A stretch of DNA of 64,000 bases, taken from positions 1 through 64,000 of the forward strand of contig UBMP01000016.1 of NCBI GenBank assembly GCA_900466575.1, read 5' to 3'. The notes under the pieces were generated by a model, which was not told the DNA's origin, searched no databases, and saw only the letters and a program-made list of their open reading frames with translations. This document shows, piece after piece, positions 25,493-29,320 of the stretch (positions are counted from its first letter, which is position 1; the number at the start of each line of letters is the position of its first letter). Source of the DNA: Hyphomicrobiales bacterium (lineage in GTDB: Bacteria > Pseudomonadota > Alphaproteobacteria > Rhizobiales > Rhizobiaceae). The position numbers and the translations under genes were made by a program.

Positions 25493-26521
25493 TTAATACG
25501 CGAGCGGCTGGCCACTGTCTCCGTTGAGATCGAGCAATCCGTTGAGTCGCAGATTGACATAGGACGGCCCGCGCTCCGTCATGGTGACATTGACCACATG
25601 GTCGATGTTTCCCGGACCGGGACGCTGACGGATGCCGCCGCAGGTAGCCATGTTGATATAATCATGGCCCTCTATGTTCTCATGCGTGAAATAATGCGTA
25701 TGGCCGGCGATGACGGTGTAGTTCCTCCCCGCGAGCATACCCTGAATGCGGGCAAACTGCTTGTCCGCCGACTTCCAGGCCGGCTTGTGAAGCACGACGA
25801 AGGTCCAGGCCGGATTGGGATGGTTTTTCAGCGTTTCGGCGACCCATCCGACCTGCCGGTCGCTGATATTGACGACATTTCCGGAATCCTTCGCCGCCGC
25901 GATCTCCGGCAGGGCGATGAAGCTGTTCATGTCCTTCATCGCCTTTTGCGGGTCTTTCTTCAATAGATCGACCATTTCGTAATAGGGCGCGATCGTCTTG
26001 TCGGGAATTCGGATGAAGGGGTCCTCGGTGCTCAGCACGAGGAACAGCGCCTTCTTGTAGGTGAAGCTGTAATAGGTCGGTCCGCGCCGGTCGCGCCAGG
26101 CGCGCGCGGTGGCTTCGTTGTTTATATCGTGGTTGCCGCAGCAGCAGAAGAACGGGCAACCGAGCTTGGCGATCGAGCGTTCCACTTCATTCCATTGCTG
26201 ATCGATAACAGCCTGCTCTTCGTGATAGCCTTCGATAATATCGCCGACCGAGAGAACGAAATCCGGCTTCAGCCAGCTCACCTGCTCCATGGCGCGATCG
26301 AAGACGCCGGGGCGACCAAACGCGGTATTGTCCCCGACGATGGTAAAGCCGAGCGGCCGGTTCGTCAGATCCGGCGTCATGGTCCAGGGAAAGGCCCCAT
26401 TGGGAACGTCACTGGCGAAAGCCTCACCCTCGGCTCCGGTCTCGGATGACAAAGCGACAGACGGCAACGCCACCGCACTGGCAAACAAACCGCTTAAAAA
26501 ATCCGCGCGCGTGATTTTCAT
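25493..26521 (-). CDS. Exported metallophosphoesterase
   Basis: A 342-residue calcineurin-like phosphoesterase with a predicted N-terminal export signal (about 1-27, DFLSGLFASAVALPSVALS). Metal-binding blocks are SVGDIIEGYHEE, CGNHDIN, VLHKPAW and GHTHYF, but the first block reads IVGDNTAFGRPG and lacks the usual D-x-H pair, so the metal site may be variant. A Cys cluster (CPFFCCCGNHD) is unusual. Substrate unknown. The start has AAGGAG 7 bases upstream and AACGATA repeats in front. Confidence 0.85.
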   Translation of the reverse strand: MKITRADFLSGLFASAVALPSVALSSETGAEGEAFASDVPNGAFPWTMTPDLTNRPLGFTIVGDNTAFGRPGVFDRAMEQVSWLKPDFVLSVGDIIEGYHEEQAVIDQQWNEVERSIAKLGCPFFCCCGNHDINNEATARAWRDRRGPTYYSFTYKKALFLVLSTEDPFIRIPDKTIAPYYEMVDLLKKDPQKAMKDMNSFIALPEIAAAKDSGNVVNISDRQVGWVAETLKNHPNPAWTFVVLHKPAWKSADKQFARIQGMLAGRNYTVIAGHTHYFTHENIEGHDYINMATCGGIRQRPGPGNIDHVVNVTMTERGPSYVNLRLNGLLDLNGDSGQPLAY

Positions 26522-26568: not shown

Positions 26569-26676
26569 GACACAGACGTGACAAATCCATGTCATCTCTT
26601 TGAACGCCTGATCAGCCAGATCGCTGAATTCATGAGGGAAAATGCGCTGCGCGATCACGCGCAGCGCAAGGAGCAT

Positions 26677-27387
26677 TCACCCAAGCTCTTCAGCCATGGC
26701 GAGCAGCTTCCGCACGATTTCCGTCGCAGCAGCGTCGTCTTTGCCGAGCTTTCGGGCAACCGCCTCACGGAGGTTGAGGAAGGCGGCATCGACGCCGCGC
26801 GGCAGGTCGGGCCCCTCGTGACGGCCGCGACCGTGGCGATCTTCGCGCTCCCGCATGTGCTCCCCGAGCGCCTTGAGCCTTTCAACGATCATCGCGGCGT
26901 GTGTGCGGTTCTCGTCGAGATGCGCCTTGCCTTCCTGCGTGATGGTATAGAGCTTCTTGTTGCCCTCGGACGTGGTCGCGGCATAGCCCGCCTCTTCCAG
27001 AAGCGTCAGCGTCGGATAGATGACGCCGGGGCTAGGCGCATAGGCGCCGCCGCTCATTTCCTCGATCTGTTTGATGAGATCATAGCCATGACGCGGCTCG
27101 GCCTCGATCAGCGAAAGCACGAGAAGCCGGATATGACCCTGGCCGAGCGAGCGTCCGCGCGGACCGAACCCGTCATCGCCGCCGCCAAAGCCGCCGCGAC
27201 CGGGGCCACGCCCGCCCTCGCCCATGAAGCCGCGCCCGAACGGCCCGCGACCCATCAGCATCATGGCGAGAAATTTCTCTCGCTTGCCAAAATGGCGACC
27301 CTCGCCATGATCCCGGCAATGGCGACCGTGACGGCCTTCTCCATGGTGGCCATGCCGTTCATGGCGATCATCAAAATGTTCTTGCAT
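26677..27387 (-). CDS. YqjI-like PadR-family transcriptional regulator with His-rich N-terminus
   Basis: A 236-residue PadR regulator. The N-terminal 35 residues are very His-rich (HERHGHHGEGRHGRHC...), followed by a Gly/Arg/Phe-rich linker (GRGPGRGGFGGG). The PadR winged helix (about 85-165) contains LGQGHIRLLVLSLIEAEPRHGYDLIKQIEEMSGG and PSPGVIYPTLTLLEEAGY. This layout matches E. coli YqjI, a nickel-responsive repressor, so a metal-sensing role is plausible. The ATG at 27387 has AAGGAGA upstream. Duplicated operator-like sites lie in front of the gene. Confidence 0.88.
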   Translation of the reverse strand: MQEHFDDRHERHGHHGEGRHGRHCRDHGEGRHFGKREKFLAMMLMGRGPFGRGFMGEGGRGPGRGGFGGGDDGFGPRGRSLGQGHIRLLVLSLIEAEPRHGYDLIKQIEEMSGGAYAPSPGVIYPTLTLLEEAGYAATTSEGNKKLYTITQEGKAHLDENRTHAAMIVERLKALGEHMREREDRHGRGRHEGPDLPRGVDAAFLNLREAVARKLGKDDAAATEIVRKLLAMAEELG

Positions 27388-27400
27388 GAAAATCTCCTTC

Positions 27401-27544
27401 AGATGCGTTTTCGATATATCGGAATATAGACCGATTTCTCTGAAGCGCAAGACAAAGATATATCGAAAACGTATCTTTAGACGAACGAAAACGGCCGGGA
27501 GAGAACTCCCGGCCGCAAAATCAACAACTTAGATATATCGAAAA
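27401..27544. promoter_or_regulatory. Repeated operator sites upstream of the PadR gene
   Basis: Site 1 AGATGCGTTTTCGATATATC (27401-27420) recurs inverted at 27456-27475 as a 19-of-20 match; that copy sits inside a longer AAAGATA...TATCTTT palindrome (27454-27478). A third partial copy, AGATATATCGAAAA, is at 27531-27544. Sites 1 and 2 flank the promoter region of the PadR gene, which suggests autoregulation; the third lies downstream of the cysE terminator. Confidence 0.6.
27487..27515 (-). terminator. Rho-independent terminator of cysE
   Basis: CGGCCGGGAG-agaa-CTCCCGGCCG (27492-27515) is a perfect 10-bp stem followed, read leftward, by TTTTCGTT. It starts 38 bases beyond the cysE stop and insulates cysE from the PadR gene on the same strand. 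Confidence 0.85.
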
Positions 27545-27552
27545 ACTGTCGC

Positions 27553-28374
27553 TCAGTCGTAGCTCTCGACAAACTGGTTCATGCTGCGCGAAGGCTCCGT
27601 GCAGCCGGCCTCACCGACCACCCGCGCCGGCACGCCGGCAACTGTCGTGCATTTCGGCACCGGCTTCAGCACGACCGAACCGGCAGCAACGCGCGAGCAG
27701 GAGCCGACCGTGATATTGCCGAGCACCTTTGCGCCGGCACCGATCATGACCCCGTCGCCGATCTTCGGGTGACGGTCGCCGGTTTCCTTGCCCGTCCCGC
27801 CGAGCGTCACACCCTGAAGGATCGACACGTTGTCGCCGATCACGGCCGTCGCGCCGACGACGAGCCCGGTCGCATGGTCGAGGAAGAAGCCGCGCCCGAT
27901 CGGAGCGGCCGGAGCAATGTCCGTCTGGAAGACGCTGGACGAGCGGCTTTGCAGATAAAGCGCGAAATCCTTGCGGCCCTTCAGCCACAGCCAATGCGCC
28001 AGACGATGCGTCTGGATGGCGTGGAAGCCCTTGAAATAGAGCACGGGCTCGATGAAGCGCGTGCAGGCCGGGTCGCGGTCATAGACGGCCTGGATATCGA
28101 CGCGCAGGATTGTCGACCATTCCGGCCAATCGGCGAGCATCTCCTCGAATGTCTGGCGAAGCAGGACGGCCTGCATGTCGGGATGATCCAGCCGTTCGCA
28201 GATCCGGTAGATGACACAATCTTCCAGCGAACGCGCATTGATGACGGTCGAATACATGAAGGCGGCGAGCACCGGATCGTGCTTCGCGGCGGTCTCGGCC
28301 TCCAGTTTCATCGAGTCCCAGATAGGATCGACGCTCTTGATGTGGACCGGCTTCAGTTCGCTGTGCGCGGACAT
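27553..28374 (-). CDS. cysE: Serine O-acetyltransferase
   Basis: A 273-residue enzyme that acetylates serine with acetyl-CoA, the first step of cysteine synthesis. The N-terminal helical SAT domain (about 15-120) is followed by the left-handed beta-helix of hexapeptide repeats (about 150-250), with DHATGLVVGATAVIGDNVSI and QGVTLGGTGKETGDRHPKIG as the catalytic and CoA-binding blocks. The start at 28374 has AAGGAG six bases upstream. It ends at a strong terminator and is separate from cysK. Confidence 0.95.
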   Translation of the reverse strand: MSAHSELKPVHIKSVDPIWDSMKLEAETAAKHDPVLAAFMYSTVINARSLEDCVIYRICERLDHPDMQAVLLRQTFEEMLADWPEWSTILRVDIQAVYDRDPACTRFIEPVLYFKGFHAIQTHRLAHWLWLKGRKDFALYLQSRSSSVFQTDIAPAAPIGRGFFLDHATGLVVGATAVIGDNVSILQGVTLGGTGKETGDRHPKIGDGVMIGAGAKVLGNITVGSCSRVAAGSVVLKPVPKCTTVAGVPARVVGEAGCTEPSRSMNQFVESYD

Positions 28375-29257: not shown

Positions 29258-29320
29258 CCCCTCTCTTGCAAAATCTACGACTTAGCCTGCGGCTAAGACC
29301 GTGATTTTGCAAGAGAGGGG
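29258..29320. repeat. Palindromic repeat, complete copy
   Basis: A near-perfect palindrome: outer arms of 18 bp (CCCCTCTCTTGCAAAATC with its complement), a 5x5 internal loop, inner arms CTTAGCC/GGCTAAG and a TGC loop. It lies between two convergent genes and could terminate both. The left arm is identical to the element at 721, so this is a dispersed family. Confidence 0.75.

Follow-up and report, generated by a model that had tools for sequence, protein, structure and literature searches.

What does a YqjI-like regulator control when the reductase gene that is its usual target is not adjacent? This question is raised by positions 26677-27552 of the window, the whole 64,000-nucleotide stretch of DNA that was analysed, which comprise the padR gene and the entire spacer as far as the cysE stop codon. 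The initial annotation described a metal-sensing PadR regulator with three operator copies, and pointed to the neighbouring cysE and metallophosphoesterase genes as candidate targets. The reading that we favour, with a probability of about three in four, is that the padR product is an NfeR (YqjI)-like repressor that acts on GATATATC-centred operators, represses its own gene and acts locally. To our knowledge, the NfeR/YqjI-like regulator group is known only from enteric bacteria, and in the literature on NfeR/YqjI and PadR operators no alphaproteobacterial NfeR operator was recognised among the matches listed.

The padR gene (26677..27387, minus strand, ATG at 27387) encodes a protein of 236 amino acids, in which a His/Gly-rich tail (approximately residues 1-78) is followed by the PadR winged helix (PF03551, E 7e-19) and C-terminal helices. 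The first 45 residues contain 9 His and 1 Cys, in keeping with the His-rich N-terminus noted initially. An AlphaFold model (mean pLDDT 69.1) has a confident PadR winged helix and a low-confidence tail, with pLDDT below 50 at residues 1-34 and 39-78. When this model was used in Foldseek, 64 matches had E <= 0.001, PadR structures being among the matches listed, and Rv3488, LmrR and Bacillus subtilis PadR, which appear to have the winged-helix fold in common with the modelled protein, were matched at E 4e-5 to 7e-4. The classical PadR operator is ATGT-N8-ACAT, and both this operator and the ligands of its regulators are unlike those of the system considered here.

A closer likeness is to NfeR (YqjI) of E. 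coli, with 34% identity over 153 alignment columns (52 identical, E 2e-27). Both proteins have a PadR domain and a His-rich tail, and both carry HGY and YxPSPG..YP, which belong to the 17 columns that do not vary across 37 sequences, E. coli NfeR among them (alignment A2, 37 of 45 proteins tried; A3 consists of 17 of them). Judged by the PadR domain and the similarity to NfeR, the padR product can be placed in the NfeR/YqjI-like PadR group, and the earlier assignment is thus upheld. The tails differ in cysteine: over the compared stretch E. coli NfeR has 7 Cys along with 12 His, vs a single Cys in the tail of the window's protein.

Three operator-like sites are located in the spacer. Site 1 (27401..27420, plus strand) is a copy of the 20-bp unit AGATACGTTTTCGATATATC with one mismatch, site 2 (27457..27476, minus strand) is a perfect copy, and site 3 (27532..27550, plus strand), 75 bp beyond site 2 and farther upstream of padR, is a partial copy with 3 mismatches over 19 bp. 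The direct and inverted units and the partial third copy reported initially are therefore real, with the interval 27456-27475 given for the inverted unit off by one; in 100 shufflings of the window the mean number of matches to the unit was 0.00. What all three sites have in common is narrower than the 20-mer, namely the 8-bp palindrome GATATATC, to which the operator proposal had to be corrected. The core of site 1 (27413-27420) coincides with the predicted start of transcription and precedes the padR ATG by 25 nt, that of site 2 (27457-27464) is immediately upstream of the predicted -35, and that of site 3 (27532-27539) comes after the cysE stop codon and before the cysE hairpin. The units of sites 1 and 2 are mirrored around the promoter with 44 bp from core to core, and in close relatives with both cores intact this distance is 44-45 bp.

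When up to three mismatches are allowed, the whole genome (44 contigs, 5,138,420 bp) has the 19-mer only at the three places in the padR spacer, and the exact 13-mer GATATATCGAAAA likewise only at the padR sites, in three places. The core itself occurs at 16 places in the 5.14-Mb genome, 3 of the 16 falling in the padR spacer within 127 bp, where 0.0004 would be expected in the 164-bp padR-cysE spacer if cores were as dense there as the other 13 are in the genome. The genome search that the initial annotation called for thus returned no unit elsewhere in the genome, a result that literally agrees with part of what was to count there as a refutation but is outweighed by the presence of the core before the same gene in other genomes, as described below.

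The promoter elements, read from the sequence, are a weak predicted -35 (CTTGCG, 27446..27451, minus strand) lying between sites 2 and 1 and a predicted -10 (TATATT, 27423..27428, minus strand) 17 bp from it, followed by a ribosome-binding site AAGGAG (27394..27399, minus strand). The arrangement CTTGCG-N17-TATATT resembles the Sinorhizobium promoter consensus CTTGAC-N17-CTATAT as quoted in PMC2573895. An E. coli-type promoter scan did not report the padR promoter and returned only two plus-strand candidates (chance mean 0.7). The promoter-like stretch is retained in close relatives: in an alignment of eight sequences, TCTTG of the -35 region is kept in 7/8, CTATA of the -10 region in 5/8, the site 1 core in 7/8 and the site 2 core in 8/8.

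On both sides the gene is bordered by terminator-like hairpins with 11-bp stems on the minus strand, one after cysE (27491..27516), which parts cysE from padR, and one after padR (26643..26668), which parts padR from the phosphoesterase gene; padR is therefore most likely a single-gene unit. For the 81 nt that include the cysE hairpin, the folding energy is -34.4 kcal/mol (z -5.5), and terminator-like sites in the scan numbered 4, vs 2.2 on average by chance (sd 1.6). The neighbours themselves are cysE (serine O-acetyltransferase, 27553..28374, minus strand), conserved beside padR in the genus, and the metallophosphoesterase gene (25493..26521, minus strand), so the absence of an adjacent reductase gene, noted initially, is confirmed.

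The same core is found at the E. coli locus. Two exact GATATATC cores are present in the nfeF-nfeR spacer, one near each gene, and are probably the experimentally mapped NfeR sites; the third GATATATC of the 7-kb E. coli stretch lies outside the spacer, inside mug. Both organisms have a core close to the regulator's own start codon, at a distance of 25 nt for padR vs 23 nt for E. coli nfeR, and AGATATAAATTAGATATATC near E. coli nfeR has the same AGATA-N7-GATATATC layout as the window's padR. Since the core also occurs in the E. coli spacer, the 20-mer appears to be the clade form of a wider operator, whose GATATATC core is met with both in alphaproteobacteria and in E. coli and supplies a testable operator for the NfeR-like regulator group. 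What is known in this system is thus the NfeR family with the core that it shares with E. coli, and what is variant is the arrangement of targets: cysE is upstream of padR, a mirrored pair of units surrounds one promoter and is joined by a third site, and nfeF is not adjacent (no match in the window's own locus, L041, with flanks of about 1.5 kb), the genome's own nfeF-like genes being on other contigs without the core.

In a wider set of 61 loci, the window among them, 59 have GATATATC no more than 500 bp upstream of the regulator match, with one GATATATC in the remaining 371,064 bp of the same loci. This count was drawn from 64 loci (L007-L070), from which L042, L043 and L044 were omitted as copies of L007, L009 and L010; 17 further regulator matches without a locus are outside it. 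As for the two loci that lack it, the sequence of L065 extends only about 52 bp before the regulator match, and in L026 there are two near-cores. The 12-mer AAGATATATCTT occurs at 14 places in 61 family genomes, 10 of them at a padR-like regulator gene; the remaining four, one each in G017 and G012 and two in G044, belong to genomes in which a protein search gave no homologue. In the genus of the window, five of six genomes (window included) carry cysE-padR with three cores each, and site 3 is present in all five. The sixth, G123, which is 99% complete, gave no padR match in the protein search and has a single TTCGATATATC at an unrelated place, so that the site cluster is absent as well as padR. 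Across the six genomes TTCGATATATC occurs at 18 places, 12 of which are at padR. As far as can be recognised from sequence, the only site cluster in the genus is the one at padR itself.

Around the core, the sequence is less uniform. The bases before it vary by clade, being mostly TTC or TCC in the window's genus, and AAGATATATCTT is present in 19 of the 20 Devosia-titled loci that have a core. The remaining part of the initial 20-mer corresponds to TATC at gap 7 (19/186 half-flanks) or gap 8 (9/186); further peaks are TATC at gap 12 (12/186) and GATA at gaps 8 (14) and 4 (10), some of the TATC/GATA peaks being produced by neighbouring cores. A fixed helical phasing of sites was considered and rejected. 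Among 40 neighbouring core pairs, 7 are spaced at 44-45 bp and 4 at 73-75 bp, and because the other 29 have spacings of 16-17, 32, 36-39, 51, 55, 61-62 or over 100 bp, there is no general phasing rule. Tandem GATATATC cores with 16-bp spacing are found upstream of the regulator in L060, L063 and L066. Distances from core to start are biased, as the start-codon script favours starts after the last core; its start overlaps the last core (an upstream start) in L007, L041 and L049 and runs on into the next gene in L069, and for L051 it gave none. For alignments, the ATG after the core was taken in the window and L007.

From these observations a mechanism can be proposed. Because the predicted start lies under site 1 and the -35 abuts site 2, a repressor bound at both would shut out RNA polymerase, and site 3 may add cooperative binding from 75 bp upstream; binding, repression and cooperativity are all postulated for the padR product from this layout. 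Metal, probably nickel or another divalent ion, would be bound by the His-rich tail, upon which the DNA would be released, by analogy with E. coli. There, according to PMC7981267, NfeR represses nfeF and nickel relieves the repression, and nfeR is reported to rise under nickel (PMC9508795). By the same analogy, the window's padR product may be metal-responsive. The core is nevertheless kept before six homologues with no His in the tail (L013, L023, L028, L037, L039 and L040), where tail His counts depend on script-chosen starts. Because these homologues keep the core, and because the window's tail has a single Cys, metal sensing may not be universal in the group. The His-less tails come from three Devosia species and three alphaproteobacterial MAGs, one of which is a Porphyrobacter.

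In the favoured reading, then, padR would be a monocistronic local unit whose recognisable target is padR itself. That it is monocistronic and locally acting is most likely, given that no other operator cluster was found in the genome and that terminator-like hairpins lie on both sides; that it is mainly self-controlling is also most likely, as the three sites are all at its own promoter and the core precedes the same gene in distant bacteria. A stronger version for the genus, to which we give little credence, is that, once its targets elsewhere had been lost, the NfeR-like protein became regulator and effector in one, a self-regulated metal buffer: metal would free the promoter, more His-rich protein would be made, and the protein itself would soak up metal. 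If true, this closed loop would offer a simple example in which sensor and response are one and the same.

The favoured reading has to be weighed against a wider regulon of iron-uptake or nickel genes reached via degenerate or isolated operators, of which autoregulation would be only the most visible part; we regard this as unlikely, though deserving of serious consideration. It gains some weight from the full palindrome TTTCGATATATCGAAA, which with 3 mismatches matches nine further genome places vs 4 in the control, and from near-palindromes with 2-3 mismatches to TCGATATATCGA around both of the genome's reductase-like genes, at two places each in L102 and L103, one of these genes being the organism's own siderophore-interacting reductase (L103 1958-2728, PF08021 and PF04954) and the other the second PF08021 gene in the genome. 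Against it, neither gene has GATATATC, even with one mismatch, in the surrounding 5-kb stretches, no second core was reported near the 13 other cores, which also lack AT-rich flanks like those of the padR sites, and no gene was seen to be common to the six places where the genus genomes have TTCGATATATC away from padR. Of the 13, one isolated core does lie at L101 1477-1484 (G000 C44 160476-160483), close to the 3' end of an ORF that encodes a Peripla_BP_2 domain (periplasmic binding protein, PF01497, E 3.7e-14), and this is a further point in favour of a wider regulon. Members of the PF01497 periplasmic binding family function in the uptake of iron-siderophores or B12. The location of the other cores within ORFs of at least 100 aa was dropped as an argument against a wider regulon: 3048 of 3200 random positions likewise fall in ORFs, so that 12 of the 13 do so says little. 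With the 13 cores, the nine 3-mismatch palindromes and the two reductase-like genes examined, nothing convincing emerged. Elsewhere in the family, a siderophore-interacting reductase gene is beside the regulator gene in L064 and L069, and a DUF2218 gene in L050 and L058; these neighbours speak for a wider regulon and make a role in iron or nickel economy plausible for the group. In four loci, a small HlyU-family gene follows the regulator on the same strand, assigned by PF10115 in L051, L052 and L055 and by blast clustering in L049. Gene-neighbour assignment was rough, with padR unplaced in 11 of 64 loci (L009, L010, L027, L037-L039, L041, L043, L044, L064 and L069), and served as hints only.

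Control of cysE, or of the cysE-padR pair, by which metal state would be linked to cysteine synthesis, is suggested by the linkage of the two genes and by site 3 beside the cysE stop codon, both kept in five of the six genus genomes. However, site 3 is downstream of cysE and is followed by a strong hairpin, and the core persists outside the genus, where cysE had no match in L010-L040 or L044-L070 (flanks up to 5 kb or 1.5 kb), all of which renders this control highly improbable. For the phosphoesterase, no match was found beside padR in L007 and L009, the two named close relatives whose flanks are long enough, where the window gene matched next after padR is a GNAT gene on the opposite strand. 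As targets, the two neighbours proposed initially are rejected on account of the terminator-like hairpins that flank padR and the non-conservation of the neighbourhood, and both are struck from the list of likely targets. Least probable of all, and hardly credible to us, is that the repeats are bound by a protein other than the PadR protein, such as a PepA-like or nucleoid protein: PepA binds the nfeF/nfeR spacer of E. coli according to PMC8249747, but the core precedes the regulator in nearly all loci counted, and in one genus genome the cluster is missing together with the gene, both of which argue that the sites belong to the regulator.

A repeat of another kind is also found in the window, the dispersed CTCTCTTGCAAAATC, with 14 genome copies, three of which are at 29261-29275, 29303-29317 and 724-738; the copies at 29261-29275 and 29303-29317 form an inverted pair between an enoyl-CoA hydratase-like gene and a hydrolase gene.
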